Below, piece by piece: positions 3,404 through 54,724 of a DNA stretch of 64,000 nucleotides. Source of the DNA: Liolophura sinensis (Eukaryota > Mollusca > Polyplacophora > Chitonida > Chitonidae). The position numbers and the translations under genes were made by a program. The stretch covers positions 13,319,335 to 13,383,334 of the forward strand of contig NC_088297.1 of NCBI RefSeq assembly GCF_032854445.1, read 5' to 3'. Below the pieces are notes generated by a model. That model did not search any database and was not told the origin of the DNA. It saw nothing but the letters and a program-made list of their open reading frames with translations. Every line of letters starts with the position of its first letter. Position 1 is the first letter of the stretch.

Positions 3404-4663
3404 ATGCAAAAAGCAAAGCAAGCTAAACAGAAAGCAATCGATTTTCAATTCGTGTTCTGTTTTCTTTTCTCACAGATATTTGCATTCTTACTCCTCGGAT
3501 TCTGTATCTTCGCTGTTGCCTTCTACACAAAGTTTGTGTACACGACACAAAGGAGTGTTCGCGATGGTGTCAATGTAAGACCTGATGAAAGAAAAACTGA
3601 GATTAATTTTCTGAACAATGACCAGTACAGTCAAAAAGACAACTCTTTTGTCGATGGTGTCAATTCACAGGACGAAAACTGGAGTTTCAATGACGAAATC
3701 CAGCCTGAAAGCCGGAAATATTTGGTGTATTCCTGCTCTGGTAGATCACCATGTGGTGGCTGGGGCGATAGACTGCGCGGCATTGTCTCCACCTACGTCA
3801 TGGCGGTGTTGACCAATCGAGTCTTCGTAATCAACATGACGTCACCGTGTCCATTGACAATGTGGCTCCACCCAAATTTAATCCCTTGGACAGTACACAT
3901 CAAACCGGAAAGCCAGACAGACGAAATATTCATTGACGTTCACGACAACACTCGCTTTTCTGAACTACTCAAAAGCGTGGATCTATCCAAATTCTTCATC
4001 AAAGACGTGGTGAGGCTCACACCGAACTACGACTTGTTCTCTCGACTGAAACTTAACCCAATTTATCAAACACAGCTTACAGAGATGAGCAAGCCGGTGC
4101 CAGGAAAACCGGTGTCGCTTTTCTCGCGAATATTCGAAGATTTATTCGCAATGAATCATAACCTAGAATTCCAAGTGTCCAAGTTTTTAGCTGGATTGTA
4201 CGAACCCAAGCGACATCGAACGTTGATATGTGCTCAAATAAGGATGGGAAGAAATCCCAGCATTCCACGCGACACAGAAATCAGAACGAGGCCATCTGAA
4301 CTAAAGGCTTTGTGGAACTTTTTGCAGGAGTACAAAAACGACAATAGGTTTAAAATATTTGTGACTACAGATTCAGAATCAGTCCGGAAAGAAGCTAAGA
4401 AATTATTTTCCTCTCAAATCTTGGACACTTCCGGTCCCATAACACATCCGGACTATCGCCATGGCAACGATAGCTGTTTGGGTCTGGGGAAGATAATTTT
4501 GGACCAGTATCTGTTGCGGTTCTGTGACACCTTGGTGATTAGTAAAAGTTTGTTTGGTGTCATTGGTGCTCATTTGAGAGGAAAAACGAGCAATCTGTAT
4601 CAATTTTCGAATGGAACTGTTGATAGGATGGCTTTGAGTGCCTATCATTTGTTTAACTTTTAG
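3404..4663 (+). CDS. Fucosyltransferase-like type II membrane protein
   Basis: This 419-aa open frame begins with a short cytosolic stretch and one hydrophobic segment (about residues 24-42), the layout of a Golgi type II glycosyltransferase. A variable stem follows (about 45-105). The motif CGGWGDRLRGIVST then leads into AVLTNRVFVI (about 117-144). It resembles the Gly-x-Gly-(D/N)-R motif and following helix of the GT11/GT23/GT37 fucosyltransferase fold, where it takes part in GDP-fucose binding. CAQIRMGRN, TTDSESVR and the C-terminal SKSLFGVIGAHLRG fit the later motifs of that fold. Function and acceptor sugar are inferred, not known. A strong acceptor (TTTTCTCACAG, ending at 3474) lies inside the frame upstream of the membrane segment. 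The coding exon may therefore start at 3475 with the start codon in an unseen upstream exon, and ATG 3404 may be spurious. The catalytic part is uninterrupted. Confidence 0.75.
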   Translation: MQKAKQAKQKAIDFQFVFCFLFSQIFAFLLLGFCIFAVAFYTKFVYTTQRSVRDGVNVRPDERKTEINFLNNDQYSQKDNSFVDGVNSQDENWSFNDEIQPESRKYLVYSCSGRSPCGGWGDRLRGIVSTYVMAVLTNRVFVINMTSPCPLTMWLHPNLIPWTVHIKPESQTDEIFIDVHDNTRFSELLKSVDLSKFFIKDVVRLTPNYDLFSRLKLNPIYQTQLTEMSKPVPGKPVSLFSRIFEDLFAMNHNLEFQVSKFLAGLYEPKRHRTLICAQIRMGRNPSIPRDTEIRTRPSELKALWNFLQEYKNDNRFKIFVTTDSESVRKEAKKLFSSQILDTSGPITHPDYRHGNDSCLGLGKIILDQYLLRFCDTLVISKSLFGVIGAHLRGKTSNLYQFSNGTVDRMALSAYHLFNF

Positions 4664-8689: not shown

Positions 8690-11600
8690 TTACTGTTTTG
8701 ACAAGCCGAAGAAGCTGTCTTCATAGGACGAGAACACAGATGAGATGTCAGACACGTTCACAAACAGCGTATCACCGCTGTTGACGTTGATCTCCGCCTG
8801 GAAATACGACGGCTGGAGGATTCTGGCGTCGGTGACGTTCATCTTAGTGGTCTTCGAACAGATGACGACTTTTCCCTCTTCATGGTGCGCGCGCACACGG
8901 AACAGACAGTGTATGTAGAGGGTGGGACCGGATGCCCTGGGTAACTGGCGAAATGTCACCTGACTGTATACCTTGTACACGCCGTTCTCTGGGGCGATCA
9001 GTCCACCGTATTTTCTGTTGTACTGGAGAGAGTCAGACAAATGACCAGTGCCTTCGGAAAATGGTGTCTGTGTGCACCAATGCATTGCATCACCCATTTC
9101 TGTAACATACAAAAAGTTAGCAGTCAAATGGATTTGAAATCCAAATCTGAAATCACTGCAATATGCCTCAATGTCATATTATACTCCAGTGAAGATTTAG
9201 TTCAAGACAGCTGATCTAATAAAGATCTGATAGGCCGTTCACGGATAGAGAATTCCACGCCGTTTAGTCTTAGGAAATTCAGATTCTGGAGTTTTTATTG
9301 ACAAAGGCAAAATTTAAAACCTCTATACAAGATAAAAAAAAAAACTACAGCATAAAGGGTAAAACAAGATCAGCGACCACAGTGTGATAGGAGGCAACTG
9401 GTCAGACGATAGCGGTGAAATCCGGCCTCTTGTCCGTTTACCTCAGTTAGGGTTTTATGTTAGCTGTTAAATACAGAAATAGTAGCAAATTACACGCCCC
9501 ACAGAACCATGACTTAAGCAAAATTATCTAAAATAAGTATGCAGAGATGATAACTGCAACACATTAGACGTCACTGGTCTTGAATTACTCACTGAGTACG
9601 GATTACGGCTAAAAACCCAAAGACGTATGGCTACGGCTTTACATCAGGGGTTACTATCAGTTACAAGCTGATGTGCGGTAGATTCTTCTTAGTAAACAAG
9701 AGACCATTGTTCAGCTATGAATTGGTTTATTCCGACGTGAAAGTAGTTTTTTACCTCCTGTTTTTGGGTAGTCCAGAAACAGAAAAGCTGACGACCTGCT
9801 GGAAACACTTTGATTGCACTTTGGTCTGTCTGGAATAACATAAAAAATATCATGAAATGAAATGTAAGAAACCCGAATTTCAGACCGTTATTTCCGAGTA
9901 AAGGTAAAGATACATAAAACACAGTCATTCCACCCACGGCATAGCATTTCGATAAAACAAACTGTTAGCACAAATCCTGTTATTTAGAAATCACATGAAA
10001 CCAAACTTACCGTTCTTTTCTTGTTCAAGATCCTGAGCTGCTTTGCTGGAAAACTATAAAATAAAATAAAAAACAAAACAAAAAAAAAACAAAACAAAAA
10101 AAATACAGATAAAAAGAAGGCTGTTATCATGGAACAAAGAACAATTAAAGACCATTATGTTCACAACTTTTTTCAATGACATTTACAAGTTGAGTTGGAT
10201 AACAAAAACAAATATATGCATTATACATGATATCGATATTAGTACCTGTCATAAAACGTCGCTCTCTGAATAAACAGAAGTTGTGATCGACATAATTATT
10301 ATGTTATAAGGTTTTTCAGGAAGTATTACGGTATAATATCATTACATGCATAAATAATCACGAAATTATTATATATATGGTATAACCGTGTATCTGAAAA
10401 TGCGATCGGTAAATGGTTCAGGGACTTAACACGCCCTTTAATAGATTTCTGCAAATTAGGGTTTAACTAATCAGGCCCCCCTCCCTCTCCAACGTATCCA
10501 TAGCAACACGGTTAAACGGCATTGTCATCAGAGTGGGAAAGCGTGGGCATACAATTTCTATGATAAGGAATTAAGTAGTTGTTAGTATTTATAGTATTGA
10601 AATGACATGGGGGGAACCCTGATGATCAAACTCCAAGGGTCGATTCCACAAAGATTTTTTTATGACTCTTATTTTTAGTCGTTCGGTACTGGAAATTGCT
10701 TAGTTTTTGGTACTGGGAATTCAAATTTGGCGCATTTGTACAAAGATATATTTATTTGATTGTTTTTTTACGCCGTACTTAGCAATATTTCACATATACG
10801 ACGGCGGCCAGCATTATGGTGGGAAGAAACCGGGCAGAACCCGGGGAAAACCCACAACCATCCAGAGGTTGTTGCAAGGCCTTTCTACGTACCGTCGGAG
10901 AGGAAGCCAGCATGAGCTGGACTTGAACTCACAGCCACCGCACTGGTGAGAGGCTCCTGAGTCATAGTGAATTTGTATAAAGATAACACTGGAGAGGTGG
11001 CATGACGAAAGATTAAAAAATAGGCTCTAAAGTCATATTTCAAATCCTGGCTTAAATCTTCAGTAATGTTCAGTAAGCAGCTTTTGGTCCCAGCTGTTCA
11101 AAATTTGACGGGTGTCATAAGACGTCGTACGAGGGGTGATTAAATCACATTGTAACTTTAACTTTACAACTGCCTTTGTGTAGTCGACACCAAGTCGCTC
11201 TAAAATGTATTTGTTTACTATTTGATTAGGGTCATACGGTTTTCCAATAAAAGGCTCACTTATTTAACGGCGCCGAGATAATTAATAAAGTCAACGTAGA
11301 CAAATTACCTCACTCTCTAACTATTTACTTACCGAAGTATAAGGAACTTGGCTATTTCCTTTGCTGAAGCAACACAACACAGATAGTTCCTTTTACACTG
11401 GTTAACACATGGTCAAGCTTAATTCCTTTGTTTGAGCTGACCATACCAGCTTCCAGTAGCTACAGACATGTGTATTACCGCAGTGTATGTAAGCAAGGTG
11501 GCAGCACATCTGGAAGGGATTAATTTCTCCTTGGCATCTATTGCCCCTGATGACCCCTGCTGGTTAATCTCATCCTATCAGCCCAGCCTCTTGATAGAGG

Positions 11601-14600: not shown

Positions 14601-16405
14601 GGTAAAACCTGTGTCTACGTTATGGACAAGGCAGAAAATTAACCCCTAACCTACCATGCAATTATATGAAATCATATACTGTCTCCAACAAAATCGCCAC
14701 AAGTACACAGGTTACACAGAACTGGAACAGTCAAGCCTTTGAATGACGTCACACCCGCAGAGCACAACACAGGGTAAATACAGGCATGGAGGTATAATCC
14801 ACTTTAGAACGGTCACAGCTCCCGCAGAAACTCACAAACTAGCCGTTCAGAGACGTAGAGTAATGTCACCTTGTGGCAGAACGAACGTCCTTTGTGCAAA
14901 ACTGAAAACTTCAGTTTAGAGTCCTTGACAACCTTGTCGGTCAGGTGAGGTCAGCGTGTTAAACAAACTACACAGTCAACACTGTATAATCATAATAAAG
15001 ATCCGAACACCAATAAACGTGACTTCCGCAGAAATTCACATAAACCAGACATCAGTACAACTGTGGTACACAAACGGTGCCAGCATAAAAATCTGTCCTC
15101 CCAAATGAAACTGGCATCACCAGCTCATATCAAAATAATGGACTCGATACGAGAGCGTCGCATACTCTCCTGGCTCCCAGTGGATGCAGCAAAAATACCT
15201 CCCCTCTCTGCACAGAAAACACGGCTTATATACGTTCCAGGTGGATTCAACTATTTTTAAACACAGAATTAACAGCCAATGAACAGCCAATAAAATAAAC
15301 AAAGCATTGAACAAGGTGCTTTCCATCCGGTCCGCGCTGTACATATATAACAGGGCCTGTTATGCTTTCACAAAGATCCGCAGACTAACAGTACATGAAA
15401 ACGTTAAATAGTCATACATAACATAGTATTGACTATATTGCAATCATTGTTAGCATGATGTCACTTGGTTTCTAGATGTCATGCTTAAACGTTACATGCA
15501 TTATGGTCTGACTGTCAGGCTGACCTCTCAACTTCAACCTACCTTGACCTACATGTATGTGTACAGGTCACTGTGTACACATATGGACACACATGTAACA
15601 TGTCTATTATATAATTGGGTTAATAATCATGTCCAACACCTTAACTTGTTTAACTTACCTGTTATGACCATATGGCGCTTCTATTAAGTCTTTGTAAGCT
15701 AAGTTCTAAATTATTTACTCATTAATACTTGAAAGCTCTAGTAGCTCTCCTGATTCCCTCCAAGACAGCCGAGCAGTCAAGACGTGTTTTGCTAAGATCA
15801 CAGCCAGTCTTCATTCATTTCACCCAGGTGCTGTACCGTCTTGACTGCCAGACGTTACCCTCCAGGCTGCTTCTCCTTGTGAGTCCCTCAGCGGGAACAC
15901 TATCCAAACTCAGAAGGAAGGGAAAGGAACATATTTACAGATACCCCTACTCTTATACTGATTACCTCTGTCTCAAATAATAAATTCTCAGGCTGTGGCA
16001 CTTGTGAAAACCCACCAGAGCATTTGCGTTCTTTGTCCAGCATATATTTAACACTTGTTCCCCCAAAAGCCAGTCACGTGTCCACCCGACAACGTAAGAT
16101 AGTCTCGTAGGTGATTCAACCGCAGACAAACAGGTCTTACACTTACACGGTACACACATGAGGTTTTGAGGTGCCGAATAGGAGTCCGTGGGTCCGTGGG
16201 ACCTTCTAATGCTTTGAAAGACTAGAAAACCAACAACGCCAGCCAAGAGCATCAAAACCAACGTCAGTAAGATGCAGCGAACACTTTTGGTGTACGAAGG
16301 TTTGTGTCTAGGAGTTCTTCTGCCAACACGGTCCTGTTCCACATCGGTATCTGCCGACAACGTCTGTGTCACACGACGCGGCAAAGCCTTCTCCGCGGAT
16401 GCCAT
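8690..16405 (-). CDS. TNF-superfamily ligand (five exons, 269 aa)
   Basis: Type II membrane cytokine. Exons in transcription order are 16405-16147, 11363-11333, 10045-10011, 9829-9755 and 9099-8690. Every junction has GT-AG ends, and phases 1, 2, 1, 1 agree, giving 810 nt with one stop at the end. Residues 1-42 are cytosolic and basic, and 43-64 form the membrane anchor (ILLTLVLMLLAGVVGFLVF). Residues 87-109 form a short alpha-helical stalk (KAAQDLEQEKN). The TNF homology domain runs from about residue 120 (SSAFLFLDY) to 269. It includes NGVYKVYSQVTF, the family's most conserved strand pair, and ends FFGLSKQ, a typical TNF C-terminus. Two cysteines (CSK near the middle, and the HWC segment) could form the usual disulphide. 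The orthology group (TNF/TRAIL/Eiger-like) cannot be set by eye, and receptor binding is inferred. Intron 1 is about 4.8 kb. Confidence 0.93.
10745..10968 (-). repeat. Main-family SINE, near full length, in TNF intron
   Basis: On the minus strand it includes ATGACTCAGGAGCCTCTCAC and GAGTTCAAGTCCAGCTCATG (B-box side of the head), the body, the TGAAATATT core and the ATAAATATA tail. It lies between TNF exons 2 and 3. Confidence 0.9.
13190..13510. repeat. Degenerate short tandem repeat around CAGTCCCACAGCCTGGGAA
   Basis: The words TGGGA, CAGTCCCAC and CCTGGGAA recur every 20-27 bp across about 300 bp inside TNF intron 1. Period and phase are irregular, as in an old minisatellite. Confidence 0.5.
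13600..16146. other. TNF intron 1, remainder
   Basis: The stretch holds a 124-aa plus-strand frame (14067-14441) with no recognisable domain and no good splice context. I see no other structure. Confidence 0.5.
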
Positions 16406-16407
16406 AC

Positions 16408-16416
16408 CTACACCAT
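16408..16416 (-). promoter_or_regulatory. Minimal uORF (Met-Val-stop) before the TNF start
   Basis: Reading toward the TNF start, ATG-GTG-TAG is followed by two bases and then the TNF ATG. If the transcript includes it, ribosomes would have to terminate and reinitiate, or leaky-scan, to reach the ligand frame. That is a common way of damping cytokine translation (inference). Confidence 0.5.
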
Positions 16417-16493
16417 GCTGCTGGTCTCACTACTGACGAACTAGAAGTGGGCAAACTGGGCTTTGCCACGCACGTGAGTGGGCTTAGAAGAGC

Positions 16494-16521: not shown

Positions 16522-16923
16522 AAAGCATGGCAGGGCGTCATTCGACCAATCAAATGGCACAATACAAAGCCCAAATTCACAGCGAAGTAGAAAATGGTGA
16601 AACAACAACCACGTGTATATTATTTACACATACGTACAGCTATACATGTAGATTAGGTACCTGTGTGCAGTACTGGTGTGGTACCGAGCATTTATAGTTT
16701 AATAATAACATATTTTTATTAATGCATGTACCTTATAGCATGAAAAAAATCATTTAATCGCATTTGGTTCGCCTTTAAACGTGTGAATTTTAAACCTTGA
16801 AATTCCGACTGGGGATCAGGATTCATATATTGTTTCGAGCACCCGGGATCCTGGCAGTGACCAGTACGTCATAAGTAACAGAGAGGTAAATGGACCTAAA
16901 TGCTGATTTTTCTGGTGCAGCAA

Positions 16924-16937
16924 TACACCGATCCATT
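16924..16937 (+). repeat. 14-bp motif, left member of an inverted pair
   Basis: TACACCGATCCATT. Its exact reverse complement is at 21180-21193. The pair brackets the SWIM-YqaJ and THAP genes, each copy lying 70-195 bp upstream of a start codon. It could be a terminal or subterminal inverted repeat of a transposon, or a shared binding site in the two promoters. Confidence 0.7.
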
Positions 16938-17003
16938 TCCGCCGCGTAGGCCACGCCTCCCTTGCCGACGCCATAGCAACGCCCAAGGTCGGACATAAAA
17001 TGT

Positions 17004-17014
17004 AAACATGGCGG
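17004..17014 (+). promoter_or_regulatory. YY1-like element over the SWIM-YqaJ start codon
   Basis: AACATGGCGGC fits the animal YY1 consensus (AAnATGGCGGC) that often sits at or just after the start site of TATA-less promoters. An X-box-like half site (CCATAGCAAC) lies 24-33 bp upstream. Motif match only. Confidence 0.35.
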
Positions 17015-19575
17015 CCGGTTCAAATTTCAACTTGCTGCCTCAGGAAATTTCTACCGATTATTTTGGCGATGCCAACGATTTAACCAAGCGTGCCAAAGAG
17101 AGGGGGTATAATTTTTTCGTTAATGGTTACGTTCATGCGCTCAAAGTGAACAGTTCCAGTAAAAATATTGTCGATATCAGTGCTAAATGCTATCGTTCTG
17201 TGAGGAAAAGCGAGCAACCTCATCGAATTGACATGACTATTCATACCCAGGAGAGAAGAATCACGGACAGCCATTGTTCATGTAAAGCTGGGTATGTGTG
17301 CTTTTCCTGTTTATGTATTGAATTGGTGTATAATTATAAATATCTTGTAATGTTCATAAATGTAGATTTAAGTTTAACATGCCGCGGCAGGTATTTTAAC
17401 TGTTGTCGTTGTTGTTTCGACGTTAGCCTTGGATTTAGACTTATAGTTTGTCATCCAAAGCGCGTTGGCGCCTTCAATTTTGTTGTATACGTTATAAAAT
17501 AAAATCTGTACCATAGAAACTAATAGAGACCTAGCTTGTACTTCTAATTCTGAGGTTAAGACTGTCCAGCGATGGTTCACTTACGTTGTATATTTGCATA
17601 CTACGAAAAAATGCTGTTGAGCCCATAACTTAACTCACACTAGTGTTATGGTACCGGTATCTTCTTTTTCATTTTTACAGAATAACTGGGCTATGTTCTC
17701 ATGCTGTTAGCGTCGTCTACACAGTTGGCCACTATAAACGTTTGGGACTGAAAGATATCCCTTCACAGCTGGCTTGTACCAGTTTGCCTCAACAGTGGCA
17801 CAAACCGCGGGGCCCAAAGATCAATGCCGAGCCCGTAGCTGCAATAGTTTTCGCTAAACCAAGGCCAACACCTCGCCGAAAAAGGCCAGTGTGTTGTTCT
17901 ATACCAACACTTAGGTAATTATTAACTGCAGTGTGAACAGCAGTGTAAAATCCTTCCTCTCATCAGTGACCAGCCTGTGCAGCCCAGTTTATTGGCCTGT
18001 AGAGCATCACTAATTGGCTGAGAGAACCAGGTTAAACCCTTTGTCAATTCAGTAGGAGCTGCTGTTAGGGTAACCTCTCTGTTTAAATTCCTCAGTCTGA
18101 CACTGTTTATCGCACTTATTAATATTTAGAAGTTCCCTCTTGGCAAAGTCTCTGATCAATTTATTGTTTTCCTCTTCCAGCTGCCTGATTCTTGCAACCA
18201 TGGAGAACACATCCAACTCAGAATAGACTGAAATGGTAAATAGTGAACAGGATTGATTAACTGACTGGGCAGTAATGCAATTAAATAGCTACTGGAAAAT
18301 TTCTCACAACAACGAAACTCAGTTTGGAATGAGATGGATATTCCCCGTTTCCAGAGTATGGAGTTATCTTTCCTTTAGACCCGGTATCTGCCTTCTGTCG
18401 TGTCCCACAGTGACCACATACTAAGCATACCATCTTTCAACTGTCTGGCTTTACAATATGAAATAGGGAGTATTCACCCACTACAAGGGAAGTAAAGGTG
18501 TCACTCTCAGTACAGTGGAGACCTCTGTTTCATTGACTAAGAAAGCCAGATAGGTATTCATGGGATTTTGTTTTTGTCAGTCCGTGAGATAGAGGTCTCC
18601 AGTGGACTGTGAATATTCCCCATTAGAACAGATGTTACTAAGGGCAAATAACTCCTTATTCTGCAAATGGGGAATACTGTCTGAAATATTTACTCTCCTT
18701 TCAGTGTTTCCTGCACTTTCATTCCTTGTGATATTAAACCTATACATTTCATATTTCAGCTTTCACATTACAGAGATGTACCAAATCTTGCACCAAAGAC
18801 GACAACTTGTGGAAGAACTGTATTTCCCCAACCCAACAATGAAATGCAGCCAGCCATTAACAATCAGATGTGCAGCCTTATCAACGCAATATTTGGCACA
18901 ACTCAAGAAGAGGCTGAAAAAATTGAGATGTCAACACGGGACCAAGCAGACAGCGCTATGTGGTTTGAGGAAAGACGAAATGGTCTGACAGCTTCACAGT
19001 TTGCAAAAATTTGTAAAAGGAAAAAGGATATCAATGAAAAATTCATTAACAGTTTATTTGGAGAAGTTAATACCTTTACATCTCCAGCAACATCGTATGG
19101 TAGGGCCAATGAATCTGTTGCCAAGCAAGTATACTTGGCCAAAAATACAAACATTCACATTCATGACTGCGGGCTGGTTGTCAATCCACAATTCTCGTTT
19201 TTAGCTGCAACACCTGATGGTAAAATTTGTATCAATGGCCAGACGGGAATACTTGAAATAAAATGTCCTTACTCAGCCAGAGATTTGACGATTTCAGAAG
19301 CTGCAAATACAGTTCCAAATTTCTGTCTAGTGAAACTGGGAACAAGTCATACCTTAAACCAGAATCATGACTACTATTTTCAGGTGCAAGGGCAACTGTT
19401 GGTAACTGGAGCTCCTTTTTGCTTATTTCTGGTGTATACAAAGAAAGACATGTTTGAAGAACAAATACTGCCCAATTTAAATTTCAGGACAGATATGTAC
19501 AAGAAGTTGTTGAGGTTTTACTCTCAGTATGGCCCGAAGAGTATATCATTACATTCTCCTAGTGGAAGTGAATAG
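17008..19575 (+). CDS. SWIM zinc-finger + YqaJ-type nuclease protein (three exons, 439 aa)
   Basis: Exons are 17008-17291, 17681-17914 and 18774-19575. Splice sites are G|GTATGT, TTTTTACAG|A, AG|GTAATT and CATTACAG|A. Phases 2 and 2 agree, giving 1320 nt with a single terminal stop. The SWIM finger (CxC...CxH) is split by intron 1: C90-S-C92, then C100-S-H102. The YqaJ/PD-(D/E)xK nuclease domain occupies about residues 230-425. Candidate catalytic residues are E286 (GRANE), D321 (ATPDG), E334 and K336 (LEIKC), and Q376/Q378 (FQVQGQ). All expected motifs are present, so the enzyme could be active. YqaJ domains resemble phage recombination exonucleases. In animals they are found in many SWIM-containing proteins and, as I recall, in the accessory protein of ISL2EU/IS4EU DNA transposons. 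The opposite strand carries the THAP gene, with interleaved exons. Confidence 0.9.
17988..17993 (-). terminator. Candidate poly(A) signal of the THAP gene
   Basis: AATAAA on the minus strand, 56 bp past the THAP stop and still inside intron 2 of the SWIM-YqaJ gene. If used, the THAP transcript would end before reaching the sense exon 17681-17914. Confidence 0.5.
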
Positions 19576-20985
19576 GACATACTTACTCTGTTCTTCAGTC
19601 TGGCTTGCAGAATCACAACTGTGAGAAGAACCTTCTGGTGGTGATGAGTCTGTAATATCACTGGGAATTAAGCAAACACAGTCACTATTTACTGTAACAC
19701 ATGTCTTGATTAACTTGTCCAGATTTATAATTTATTACAATCATTATTTCTGTATTCATTTATGTGACCAGATTTATAAATTAACTTGCTACTAATGGCA
19801 AGTGGTGTTGTGTATCCAGATTAAGTAAACTGTGCCAAAGTTCCTATAAGCCTCAATAAATTTTAGCTGGACACTTAACTGTGTGAATATTCAGAGTTAA
19901 TAACACACTAATGAAATACTCTTGGTTATTGTTTACATAATGATAAATATTGTTCATATCAACCTACTGTGATTGCTTATAATAAAATATTAATGTTACC
20001 TATTGCTGGAAACAGATAATGTGTTGTTCTGGGCATATGATACATGGCGGCGTGATTTTCTAAATTCCCCACTTAAAGCATCATTTGGATCAGGATATTC
20101 TTCATTAGGTCCACTGAGAGATATGAAATGCTGCAAGTAAATAAAGACACATATGAGTTGGTATTCGTGAGATTTCATTAAAAGTGAGCGAGTGCTTGGG
20201 TTTAACAACCTAATGAACAGTATTTCAGCCATATACAGACGGTGTCTCCTTGTTGCAGGATGGATTTCCTCCGCTCTTTTAAGGTGCTACAGCTGTACCT
20301 CAGCAAGAGAACTTGCCTAAAAAGACACCCAGCAAGCCCCCTCACCCAGTCACATTATGCTGACACCGGGCCGACCAGTCGCTGCTCTAACCCCACAACA
20401 GCTCCCACTGTTAGAGTTTCTGGTCTGACTAGACCCAGGTTTGACCCTGGATCTCCCAGCCCAGAAGCGGACATGCTAATCAATAATGACAGACTTAACA
20501 TGTTAACGCAATCCCTCCCCTCTCCTATACCCCATAAAATAAAATAAAATAAAAATAAAAAAATATTGCACTTAGGGACGTGTGGACAGTGGAACATTAA
20601 CAAAAGAGTCTAAATTTCGGACACAACTTTGTTACAAGGAATATTCGCAAACGCACATGCACAGGCCTTTTACATGTACAACAACACCACCGCCTTATGA
20701 ATATCTGACAGATAAGCGGCGATGGAGCCTCACAGAAAGTTACCAAGCTTCGACAACCATTACATACATCAAAATAGATTCACTTACCTTTGAACAAATA
20801 TATATATGCTTAGTTATTTTTTCCACGTTGAGATGGGAATGTGGACGGCAACACAAAGCTATCCAGCGCAGGCATTTTTGCAGGTCAGACTTTGGCTTCG
20901 GGAAAGGAATAAATTTAGCTCCTCCTAACTTTTCCGGGTACCTGCTATCAGATTTGCAAGTCCCATATGAACAATGCTTCACCAT
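18049..20985 (-). CDS. THAP-domain protein with C-terminal coiled coil (four exons, 193 aa)
   Basis: Exons in order are 20985-20788, 20130-20000, 19660-19587 and 18227-18049. Junctions are AAG|GTAAGT, TTGCAG|C, AG|GTAACA, TCCCAG|T, A|GTAAGT and ATTTCAG|T, with phases 0, 2, 1. The 582 nt contain one stop. THAP zinc-finger ligands are C5, C10 and the ICSKH pair. The zinc-binding His is the first codon of exon 2, which supports the splice. Conserved landmarks CLRWI and KFIPFPKPK are present, with RPHSHLNV between helix and C-terminus. After a Ser-rich linker containing two (S/C)QTE motifs comes a leucine-zipper-like helix (MVARIRQLEEENNKLIRDF). Such THAP N-termini are common ahead of Harbinger/ISL2EU-type DDE transposases, but no DDE domain follows. 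It is expected to be a nuclear DNA-binding protein. Exon 4 lies inside intron 2 of the SWIM-YqaJ gene, and exon 3 lies 11 bp beyond that gene's stop. Confidence 0.9.
19855..19860 (+). terminator. Candidate poly(A) signal of the SWIM-YqaJ gene
   Basis: AATAAA about 280 bp past the stop. A 3' UTR reaching it would contain the complement of THAP exon 3 (19587-19660), so the two mature transcripts could pair. A second AATAAA lies near 19983. Confidence 0.4.
20240..20567 (+). repeat. Retroposed-looking repeat with (AAAAT)n tail in THAP intron 1
   Basis: About 280 bp of GC-richer, CC-rich sequence with a B-box-like GGTTTGACCCTGG ends in an (AAAAT)n/A-rich tail. The layout is that of a SINE or a retroposed fragment. 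It is not the main SINE family of this window. Confidence 0.5.
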
Positions 20986-21179
20986 TTTCACAAGAGGCAA
21001 ACATTCAGACAGTATATAGGATGTCTTGAGGCTGAGTTTACTTAGACTTCTGCCACCAGTTTCACGCGTCACGCAGTACTGTATCAGCCATGTCGGAGTT
21101 TTGTCCAACCTGTGGGCGGAGCTAAAGGGTGAACGTGTTGTGCAATTTGATTGGCTTATCGCCCGTCAATCATATCGCG

Positions 21180-21193
21180 AATGGATCGGTGTA
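21180..21193 (-). repeat. 14-bp motif, right member of an inverted pair
   Basis: AATGGATCGGTGTA on the plus strand, the exact reverse complement of 16924-16937. It lies about 195 bp upstream of the THAP start codon. Confidence 0.7.
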
Positions 21194-21213
21194 ATAGTTT
21201 AGTTCCCCATTTT

Positions 21214-21678: not shown

Positions 21679-21885
21679 GTGCTTATACTAGCAGTAGTTA
21701 GCAGGAATTGCCCGTTAGCTCAGTTGGTAGAGCGCTGGACATCAGCTGCAGAAACCCGAGTTCGAATTGTGACCGACGTAGTGAAATCTTTCAACCATTC
21801 CACTGGTACCTTGACCCAACAGGTTCCAAGAAGCGCGGAGCTCTGGGCCAGTGATCGTGGGTGTGTTTTGGGAGAGTGGGGAGGA
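21679..21885 (+). repeat. tRNA-headed insert flanked by 22-bp direct repeats
   Basis: Contains GCCCGTTAGCTCAGTTGG (A-box region) and GAGTTCGAATTG (B box), but no acceptor-stem complement, so it is a tRNA-derived SINE head and not a tRNA gene. It is flanked by GTGTAAC(T/A)GGAGCAGCTT-type repeats at 21657-21678 and 21886-21907 with one mismatch, consistent with a target-site duplication. Confidence 0.65.
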
Positions 21886-22233: not shown

Positions 22234-22395
22234 CCGTAAGTGGGAAGGTCTGTCAGCAACCTGCGGATTGTCATGGATTTCCCCCGGGCTCGGCCCGGTT
22301 TCCACCCACCATAATGCTGACCGCTGTCGTATAAGTGAAATATTCTTGGGGGTACGGCATAAAACAACAATCAAATAAAATAAAGAAATAAATAT
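22234..22395 (+). repeat. Main-family SINE, 5' truncated
   Basis: Starts at the GTGGGAAGGTCTG body block, runs through CATAATGCTGACCGCTGTCG and the AAGTGAAATATTCTTG core, and ends in an A/T-rich tail. Confidence 0.9.
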
Positions 22396-23489: not shown

Positions 23490-24757
23490 ATAATATGATA
23501 ATAATAATATCTTTATTTATTGAAGGTAGCTCGGTCAATTTCCACTGAAACTGTTCTTCCCAAAGACCTTCAAAGAGAAAACAATATGTAGGAAATGTAT
23601 GAAAAGATTAAAATACATAAAAAAAATACATCAGTATTTATAAAACAAAAGAAAGCATTGTGTATTTTGAAAAGTGACATACATTCATACATACACGCTC
23701 AACAACACAACCAATAGTGCTGTCACTGCAACTGTCCCAACCAGCGGGGGAAGTAGGGTAGTGGAAGACGGCCCATTATCGACCCTTTTCTGCCCTCCTG
23801 CTGTCTGGAACCCTGACACGCATATACAGAGAACAAGCCAAATGAGTGGAAGATTGCCCCTTTAGAAATAATTAGAAATAATAAAATTGTTCTTTAGAAA
23901 TAATGGTAGATCATTTATGTATAGTATAAAAAGTAAAGGCCGCAATATGGAGCCAGCCTTACAAGAGACTGGCTTTAATATCCTTAGCATTATACATTTC
24001 TCCTCCACAAACAACCATTTGTTGTGTGTTAGATAGGTATCACTGGAAGAATGTAAGAGCAGTTGAGTGAATTTGTATGCTTTAAGTTTTTTAAGTAATA
24101 TATTGTGATTAACAGTATCAAATGCCTGCTTGAAGTCTACAGGTACAGTTCCAATAACTTCAGTGTTATCTCTCGCCGTAAACCAGTGTTTAACCATTTT
24201 CAGCAATACAGTTCCACAAGAGCGTAAGAGGGGCAAAAACCACATTTATTTTTGCTCAATAATTTAAAATTTGAGAGATACTCATATAAACAGTTATGTA
24301 AATGTCGTTCAGTGATTTTTGAAAAACTGAGTAGGACAGATATTGGATGATAGTTTTCAACTTTGAACCCCTTTTGTGAAGAGGGATAACCATGTCTGGT
24401 CATAACACATTTGTTTATTAGCATGGTAAAAGATTTTGCAATAATATGGGCAGATGATGAAAGAAATTTAGAATTGACATTGTCTAGATCTCTAGCCTTA
24501 TCTATATCAAGCCTTAAAAGGTATTGTAAAACAGAAACGTACAAGATATTTGGTATGGAGTAAAAAGTATCATGAAGAACTTTTCCCTCAACTTGTTCCC
24601 TGAGTTTTTCAAGACTTTGAACAAAATTGTCCTTGTTTATATTATTAATATCTATTAAAGAATGGGGACAGTTGAGAAGAAAGTATTGAAAATATGGAAA
24701 ATTTTAGCTGGATCATCTATTAAATTGCAATCCTTCTCAGTCATAGCCAAGTACTGC
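23490..24757 (-). mobile_element. Non-LTR retrotransposon (LINE) fragment with reverse transcriptase
   Basis: On the minus strand a jockey/CR1-like reverse transcriptase can be followed. It opens with DDPAKIFHIFNTFF (start of the RT region). IDKARDLDNVNSKFL, YHPISVLLSFSKITER and VDFKQAFDTVNHNILLKKL come next, and RPLLFILYINDLPL comes last. The frame is broken by at least two shifts, and the catalytic (F/Y)xDD box is not preserved beyond IND. The element is 5' truncated with no endonuclease domain. The far end near 23490-23530 is rich in AT and TTTATTTATTGAAGG, which could be the 3' end of the element. Confidence 0.8.
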
Positions 24758-36479: not shown

Positions 36480-38500
36480 ACGCCACTCCATCTTCAGCAT
36501 TGTACAGACTATGTTTATTATACAGACCTGGGTGGGCTGTGGAAGGTGGGTTGTATAATGTTTATGGTACAGACCCAGATGGACTGTGGAAGGTAGGTTG
36601 TTGAGTGTTTATTACACAGACCTGGGTGGGATATGAAAGGTGGGATGTACTGTGTTTATTATACAGACTTGGGTGGGCTGTGGAAGGTGGGTTGTAGAGT
36701 GTTTACTGTATGGACCTGGGTGGGCTGTGGAAGGTGGGTTGTAGTGTGTTTAGGGTACAGACCCAGATGGACTGTGGAAGGTAGGTTGTCGAGTGTTTAT
36801 TACACAGACCTGGGTGGGCTGTGGGAGGCGGGTTGTAGAGTGTTTATGGTACAGACCCAGATGGACTGTGGAAGGAAGGTTGTCAAGTGTTTATTATACA
36901 GACCTGGGTGGGCTATGAAAGGTGGGTTGTAGTGTGTTTATTATACAGAACTGGGTGGGCTGTGGAAGGTAGGTTGTTGAGTGTTTATGGTACAGAACTG
37001 GGTGGGCTGTGGAAGGTGGGTTGTTGAGTGTTTATTATACAGACCTGGGTGGGATATGAAAGGTGGGTTGTAGTGTGTTTATGGTATAGACCCAGATGGA
37101 CTGTGGAAGGTAGGTTGTTGTGTGTTTATTACACAGACCTGGGTGGGACATAAAAGGTGGGTTGTTGAGTGTTTATTACACAGACCTGGGTGGGCTGTGG
37201 AAGGTGGGTTGTAGAGTGTTTATGGTACAGACCCAGATGGACTGTGGAAGGTAGGTTGTCGAGTGTTTATTATACAGACCTGGGTGGGCTAGGAAAGGTG
37301 GGTTGTAGTGTGTTTATTATACAGAACTGGGTGGGCTGTGGAAGGTAGGTTGTTGAGTGTTTATGGTACAGAACTGGGTGGGCTGTGGAAGGTGGGTTGT
37401 AGAGTGTTTACTGTATGGACCTGGGTGGGCTATGGAAGGTGGGTTGTAGTGTGTTTATGGTACAGACCCAGATGGACTGTGGAAGGTAGGTTGTTGAGTG
37501 TTTATTACACAGTCCTGGGTGGGATATGAAAGGTGGGTTGTAGTGTGTTTACTGTATGGACCTGGGTGGGCTGTGGAAGGTGGGTTGTAGTGTGTTTATG
37601 GTACAGACCCAGATGGACTGTGGGAGGTAGGTTGTAGTGTGTTTATGGTACAGACCCAGATGGACAGTGGGAGGTAGGTTGTTGATTGTTTATTATACAG
37701 ACCTGGGTGGGCTATGAAAGGTGGGTTGTAGTGTGTTTATTGTACTGAGACCTGGGTGGGCTGTGGAAGGGCAGTTGTCAGGGGTTTATTAAACAGACCT
37801 GGGTGGGATATGAAAGGTGGGTTGTACAGTGTTTATCATACAGACCTGGGTGGGCTGTGGAAGGGCAGTTGTAGCGTGTTTATTATACAGATCCGGGTGG
37901 GCTGTGGAAGGTGGGTTGTTGAGTGTTTATTATACCGACCTGGGTGGGCTGTGGACGGTGGGTTGTAGTGTGTTTATTATACAGACCTGAGTGGGCTGTG
38001 GACGGTGGGTTGTAGTGTGTTTATTATACAGACCTGGGTGGGCTGTGGAGGGGAAGTTGTAGTGTGTTTATTATACAGACCTGGGTGGGCTGTGGAAGGG
38101 CAGTTGTAGTGCGTTTATTATACTTAACTGGGTGGGCTGTGGAATGGCAGTTGTAGTGTGTTTATTATACAGACCTGGGTGGGCTGTGGAAGGGCAGTTG
38201 TAGTGTGTTTATTAAACAGACCTGGGTCGGCTGTGAAAGGTGGGTTGTAGTGCGCTAATTATACAGGCCTGGGTGGACTGTGGAAGGTAGGTTGTTGTGT
38301 GTTTATTACACAGACCTGGGTGGGCTGTGGAAGGTGGGTTGTAGTGTGTTTATTATACAGACCTGGGTGGGCTGTGAAAGGTGGGTTGGAGTGTGTGTAG
38401 AGGGACCAGGGTGGGTTATGGGCAGTGGGTTGTAGTGTCTGTACACTGTTAAATGGGATATGGAAGTAGGTGTGTAGTGACCTGGGTGGGCTAAAGAGTG
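36480..38500. repeat. 47-bp G-rich minisatellite, about 40 copies
   Basis: Unit of the form GTGTTTATTATACAGACCTG + GGTGGGCTGTGGAAGGTGGG + TTGTAGA, 47 bp. It keeps register for about 1.9 kb and then decays to about 38600. Main variants carry GGTACAGACCCAGATGGACT in place of the middle (left part only, 36.55-37.68 kb), or AAGGGCAGTTGTAGTG (right part, about 37.76-38.22 kb). The plus strand is strongly G-rich. As 47 is not a multiple of three, the long frames through it cycle with a 141-bp period and are not genes. Confidence 0.97.
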
Positions 38501-54549: not shown

Positions 54550-54724
54550 TTATTTATTTATTTATTTGAATGGTGTTTTACCCCGTACTCAAGAATATTT
54601 CACTTATACGACGGCGGCCAGCGTTATTGTGGGAGGAAACCGGGCAGAGCCCGGGGGAAACCCACGACCATCTGCAGGTTGTTGCCAGACCGTCCCACTT
54701 ACGGCCGGAGAGGAAGCCAGCATG
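54550..54724 (-). repeat. Main-family SINE, 5' truncated, perfect 14-bp target-site duplication
   Basis: Contains tail, core and body up to GGCTTCCTCTCCGGCCG on the minus strand, but no tRNA head. It is bounded by ACAACAACTTAAAT at 54536-54549 and at 54725-54738, identical copies. This is what target-primed insertion of an incompletely copied RNA leaves. It is among the youngest copies in the window. Confidence 0.96.

Follow-up and report, generated by a model that had tools for sequence, protein, structure and literature searches.

A decayed ISL2EU-type transposon with mutually nested transposase and nuclease genes in the genome of the chiton Liolophura sinensis

The element described here lies at positions 16924-21193 of a 64,000-nucleotide stretch of the Liolophura sinensis genome (contig NC_088297.1), hereafter the window, and is a decayed member of a known group of transposons, ISL2EU. 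It carries parts of two genes on opposite strands, one for a SWIM-YqaJ nuclease and one for a protein headed by a THAP zinc finger. The nuclease frame runs on the forward strand from an ATG at 17008 to a stop ending at 19575 and the THAP frame on the reverse strand from an ATG at 20985 to a stop ending at 18049, so that the two converge from starts about 4.0 kb apart, as a preliminary description of the sequence had reported. Exons 1 and 2 of the nuclease gene (17008-17291 and 17681-17914, forward strand), delimited by frame analysis and copy comparison, encode the SWIM part, and the last exon (18760-19575, forward strand), placed by Pfam, profile alignment and copy comparison, encodes the YqaJ catalytic domain and is open. 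The THAP gene consists of exon 1 with the zinc finger (20788-20985, Pfam THAP), exon 2 (20000-20130, frame analysis), exon 3 (19587-19684) and a remnant of transposase exon 4 (18049-18227, delimited by comparison with a sister copy), all on the reverse strand; exon 4 contains a coiled-coil-like stretch, judged by eye and without a predictor.

Pfam recovered YqaJ (PF09588, E=1.7e-16) and THAP (E=2.8e-7) in the window frames, confirming two of the three domains expected from the preliminary description, and the third, SWIM, scored 13.1 of the 19.6 bits demanded by the cut-off; the SWIM half nevertheless carries three cysteines that are invariant in an alignment of 11 rows. The nuclease motifs named at that stage (TPDG, LEIKC and FQVQ) are present. 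The YqaJ profile matches lambda-type exonucleases (PDB 3syy and 1avq) in an alignment that includes the PD and ExK motifs. These enzymes share the YqaJ core with the window protein, which differs from them in having a SWIM half in front and in being encoded by a eukaryotic transposon gene. The transposase alignment, compared by sequence with PDB, gave no match up to E=0.1.

The nearest THAP protein is the predicted product of Liolophura sinensis LOC135463831 (P0121, 193 aa), a public gene model that fits the same four THAP exons with an exon 3 acceptor at 19660 and not at 19684; the shortened protein from the window copy would have 193-201 aa. Within the junction ranges tried, 14 combinations of junctions preserve phase for the nuclease and 16 for the THAP gene, and phase alone is consequently weak evidence for either. 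The only database nuclease from the window locus among the matches listed (P0001, 243 aa) starts within the last nuclease exon and therefore lends no support to a splice between nuclease exons 2 and 3.

What the window copy has lost becomes clear from a 5,703-bp sister copy (L009, contig C11), which has the same ends, is identical to the window at 4136 of 4193 aligned bases (98.6%) and likewise contains Pfam YqaJ (PF09588). Alignment of the two leaves a single gap of 1,493 bp (L009 1769-3261), which places the junction of an internal deletion at 18072/18073 of the window. The deleted segment held a nuclease exon (exon 3, L009 1927-2070, forward strand) and the HTH-DDE part of a transposase (L009 3261-2326, reverse strand). 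On the forward strand of L009 the order is nuclease exons 1 to 3, exon 4 with HTH-DDE (reverse), the last nuclease exon, and THAP exons 3, 2 and 1 (reverse), each gene thus having exons within an intron of the other. The full-length element of about 5.7 kb accordingly comprises antiparallel, mutually nested THAP-HTH-DDE transposase and SWIM-YqaJ nuclease genes. The interdigitation of exons noted in the preliminary description is therefore real and, being present in the full-length copy, was not created by the deletion in the window. Still present in the window copy are both ends, the YqaJ and SWIM exons of the nuclease gene and the exons of the THAP gene as far as the coiled-coil-like stretch.

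The deletion truncates the transposase. In the relatives P0144, P0145 and P0149 a single protein of 505-514 aa unites THAP, HTH and DDE, and 42 of the first 43 residues of the Liolophura protein P0152 are common with window exon 4 before that protein continues into HTH and DDE (Pfam HTH_Tnp_4 and DDE_Tnp_4). No intron separates exon 4 from HTH-DDE in L009, where 355 of 355 residues of P0152 align in one block. An intron donor after exon 4 was rejected on this ground, and the end of the window THAP frame must come from beyond the deletion: the terminal YPNSSSY and the stop codon derive from sequence past the junction. The HTH-DDE continuation of P0152 has no match beyond chance within the window element. 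Weak DDE matches at 4274-4513, elsewhere in the window, were rejected as chance, and the open reading frame there scores as a fucosyltransferase.

The nuclease is affected by the same event. Its SWIM and YqaJ halves are joined by a linker of 66-73 aa in 10 of the 11 relatives measured (in the eleventh, P0004, the linker segment is present in the alignment row), compared with 19 aa in the nuclease model of the preliminary description, and the segment between the halves occurs in all 10 relatives aligned and not in that model. The start of the native last exon, at 18760, does not continue the frame of exon 2, and the frame of the modelled exon 2-3 junction depends on an AG lying 14 bp inside this native exon. 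Because the intervening exon is deleted and the native exons have lost their common frame, the modelled splice is most likely an artefact. Neither frame can consequently be called complete, as both had been, given the deletion of nuclease exon 3 and of the transposase HTH-DDE region, and the statement that all exons keep phase is not borne out at the last nuclease exon.

Other copies were sought by a DNA search of the 609-Mb, 632-contig genome, in which 40 of 1214 candidates were scored, so that all copy counts are lower bounds. Of 49 matches listed, 24 rows belong to the window family; the other 25, at 66-87% identity, were dropped from the counts, 24 of them covering only a dispersed repeat within THAP intron 1 (20183-20472 in the window) and one covering THAP exon 1. 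The family comprises at least eight long copies, the window included, and at least two left-end fragments, and the other long copies (at least seven) are 96.0-98.6% identical to the window. L009 has decayed as well: nuclease exon 1 and the YqaJ exon carry one stop each, THAP exon 1 is frameshifted and THAP exon 2 shows a gap of 44 bp at its end, and the HTH-DDE exon has stayed open. Both proteins are intact in none of the eight long copies found, nor does any of these contain an uninterrupted THAP-to-DDE frame.

Six of the at least eight long copies (L042-L047) have in common a 1,279-bp deletion with identical limits, which by copy alignment removes the segment equivalent to 18498-19776 of the window and with it the YqaJ exon and THAP exon 3. 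The HTH-DDE region is kept in all six, with its frame broken in each, as split or stop-bearing translated matches indicate; one of them (C6b) lacks a left end and contains a 200-N gap. The identity of the limits at six loci suggests that the deletion arose once and may then have been copied by transposition. In a tree of copies, the window and L009 cluster with copies C7 and C11a and do not stand apart from the six that lack YqaJ; the tree is unrooted, with a midpoint root only and with the branching order of these first four copies unsettled, and neither proves nor excludes a single origin. A lineage devoid of the nuclease core appears to have spread, and the existence of these six copies suggests that the YqaJ nuclease is not needed in cis. 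Note that both large deletions, that of the window and that of the six sisters, damage both genes because the genes are mutually nested.

The limits of the element provide a further line of evidence. The stretch 16924-21193 ends exactly at a perfect inverted repeat, TACACCGATCCATT, a feature that the preliminary description had missed, as it had the absence of HTH-DDE. Once the target dinucleotide is excluded, a 13-bp repeat remains, ACACCGATCCATT, at 16925-16937 on the left (forward strand) and 21180-21192 on the right (reverse strand); it is identical in the other left ends examined save for one substitution in C7. Inverted repeats of at least 14 bp at 300-8000 bp spacing number 39 in the window and 0-7 in Markov controls (20 runs), so repeat length alone proves little, and the argument rests on the position of the repeat outside both gene starts and its recurrence in sister copies. 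The left target dinucleotide is AT (16923-16924) preceded by A, with AAT then ACACC in all nine left ends examined, and ATT follows GGTGT in seven of the eight right ends, the exception being the window, with AAT (dinucleotide AA at 21193-21194). The ends of the family thus fit insertion at A|AT|T. Judged on the window copy by itself, a duplication of TA, of AAT or of A would be compatible; AAT and A were rejected on the ends of the sister copies. Duplication of AT, duplication of TA and no duplication are indistinguishable from the ends alone, and AT was adopted because PMC4482050 gives a 5'-AT-3' duplication at A|AT|T for the ISL2EU group.

Taken together, these patterns lead us to conclude, with a probability of roughly 95%, that the element is an internally deleted copy, itself non-autonomous, of a low-copy cut-and-paste transposon of ISL2EU type (PHIS superfamily) resident in the chiton genome. 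According to PMC4482050, ISL2EU elements encode a THAP-HTH-DDE transposase and a YqaJ protein, and PMC9179366 gives a similar content, with a transposase bearing HTH or THAP. The window family has this make-up: L009 combines a THAP-HTH-DDE transposase and a YqaJ nuclease as two genes in an animal host, the first in broken form. The window copy lacks HTH-DDE, and the YqaJ gene is found in the window and L009, with its exon absent from the six sisters. The ends of the family, as in ISL2EU, fit an A|AT|T target, and the repeats, at 13 bp, lie inside the range of 6-259 bp given for the group in PMC4482050 but start with AC, the usual start there being GG. The association of THAP and YqaJ genes proposed in the preliminary description was thus borne out by the THAP-HTH-DDE relatives, by L009 and by PMC4482050. 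In the window family the two genes are mutually nested by introns. Among the papers found on ISL2EU elements with THAP and on YqaJ in mollusc transposons, judged by title and the first lines of the abstract, none describes the window family, which does not prove that no published account exists.

Several observations weigh against this conclusion. The right target dinucleotide of the window is one base off the AT pattern, and the repeats start with AC and not with the GG that is usual for ISL2EU (PMC4482050). The autonomy of the family is only inferred, since the search yielded no copy in which both genes are intact. Every remaining exon of the window is open; copies C12 and C7, two of the six other long copies that have no assembly gap, are likewise free of lesions across the five exons compared, and the open exons of the window are therefore not exceptional. 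Finally, the test of selection is based on one decayed copy, L009, from which changes on the window's own branch are not separable. In that comparison, the ratio of non-synonymous to synonymous change (pN/pS) was 0.81 for nuclease exons 1-2 (4 synonymous and 11 non-synonymous differences), 1.07 for the last nuclease exon (2 and 8) and 0.53 for THAP exons 1-2 (1 and 2, three changes in all), and the exon 4 part of the THAP gene had no synonymous and one non-synonymous difference; six non-coding stretches differed by 0.4-2.1%. No purifying selection was seen in these few changes.

The history of a non-autonomous ISL2EU-type copy can be outlined tentatively. The THAP domain would have bound the ends of the element, cutting and joining at AATT would have been the task of the DDE domain, and the YqaJ enzyme, resembling lambda exonuclease, may have been an accessory in the processing of ends or gaps. 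The deletion in the window could stem from incomplete gap repair after excision, or could have occurred in place. As DDE is absent, the copy could have moved after the deletion only in trans, with transposase supplied by another copy. The identification as an internally deleted transposon explains the arrangement of the two genes, striking at first sight, and phase-keeping exons are seen to be no proof of kept genes. One genome moreover holds complementary deletion derivatives, one with YqaJ and without DDE and six with the DDE region and without YqaJ, a contrast that could help to ask whether ISL2EU elements need their YqaJ nuclease in cis.

The shortened THAP protein invites comparison with the P element of Drosophila. 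Small P elements that carry deletions can encode repressors, KP (207 aa) among them, and at the head of the P transposase stand a THAP domain and a leucine-zipper dimerisation domain (PMC7776569). By analogy, the window protein might bind the ends of the element and repress transposition of the family, a role that we regard as improbable. The internal deletion does leave THAP and the coiled-coil-like stretch and removes the HTH and catalytic parts, much as internal deletion leaves a short protein in KP, and the public model P0121 predicts a shortened protein of 193 aa. Repression, however, has been reported for KP (PMC7776569), and the likeness of the window protein is one of domain make-up, with a coiled coil judged by eye; furthermore, none of the seven sister copies found offers an intact transposase to repress, and the single copy bears no sign of selection in its favour. 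The KP protein retains the THAP part. The P element belongs to another transposase superfamily and is not known to carry a YqaJ gene. It is unlikely that mutually nested antiparallel genes crippled together by deletions have given rise, separately from P elements, to a THAP repressor of the KP type.

The preliminary description had favoured a transposon-derived cassette kept by the host, with a nuclease and a DNA-targeting THAP partner. The open state of all remaining window frames, the public gene model for the THAP gene and the pN/pS of 0.53 over three changes speak for such domestication. They are outweighed by transposon ends that are still in place, so that mobility signals were not lost, by at least seven other long copies of high identity, by one deletion passing through both genes that removed a conserved nuclease exon and left its neighbours out of frame, and by a nuclease pN/pS of about 1. 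The claim of host use is not supported, and we consider a domesticated cassette very improbable. That the window holds an intact, ordinary autonomous transposon is already refuted for this copy, its intact ends and open remaining frames notwithstanding, because HTH-DDE was not found in it; near-identical copies and ends, named in the preliminary description as signs of an active transposon, do occur, and the transposase region is kept in the other seven long copies as an interrupted gene.

A second family in the same genome offers a comparison with the ISL2EU-type element of the window. Copies L010 (C6:16129500-16139400) and L011 (C7:23745000-23754900) encode open THAP-like HTH-DDE frames of 527 and 513 aa and, opposite the HTH-DDE frame, an open SWIM-YqaJ-like frame of 502 aa, with about 28-31% protein identity in long matches to the proteins of the window family and their relatives. 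The two are 99.1-99.6% identical over three aligned blocks and look younger, and the genome contains five YqaJ rows of equal score for this family. Both families thus possess relatives of the two proteins on opposite strands and ends in AATT sequence, and they differ in that the second has long single open frames, placed tail to tail and without nesting. In the clam Tegillarca granosa, a SWIM nuclease (KUTeg_015673, P0038) and an HTH-DDE protein (KUTeg_015671, P0146) are both given for a 78,368-bp contig, and the two genes are therefore probably neighbours there too.

The remainder of the window contains several further features. An exon of the TNF family lies at 8693-9178 on the reverse strand (Pfam PF00229, E=5.4e-13), and an open reading frame with a hydrophobic stretch at 15965-16426, further up the same strand, could be the beginning of a gene for a TNF-type ligand, in which case the transposon would lie about 0.5 kb upstream of the first ATG of that gene. 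A reverse-transcriptase fragment at 23865-24245 (reverse strand) scored 27.3 of 29.6 bits, just under the Pfam cut-off, and is perhaps derived from a LINE-like element. A tandem array at 36512-38396 comprises about 40 copies of a 47-bp unit. A dispersed repeat around TATAAGTGAAATATTCTTG recurs, complete or partial and in either orientation, near 22330, 30072, 33719, 42925 and 49438, with further sites at 54591, 55672, 56843, 59045 and 63020, and a tRNA-like stretch near 21710 may head this repeat.

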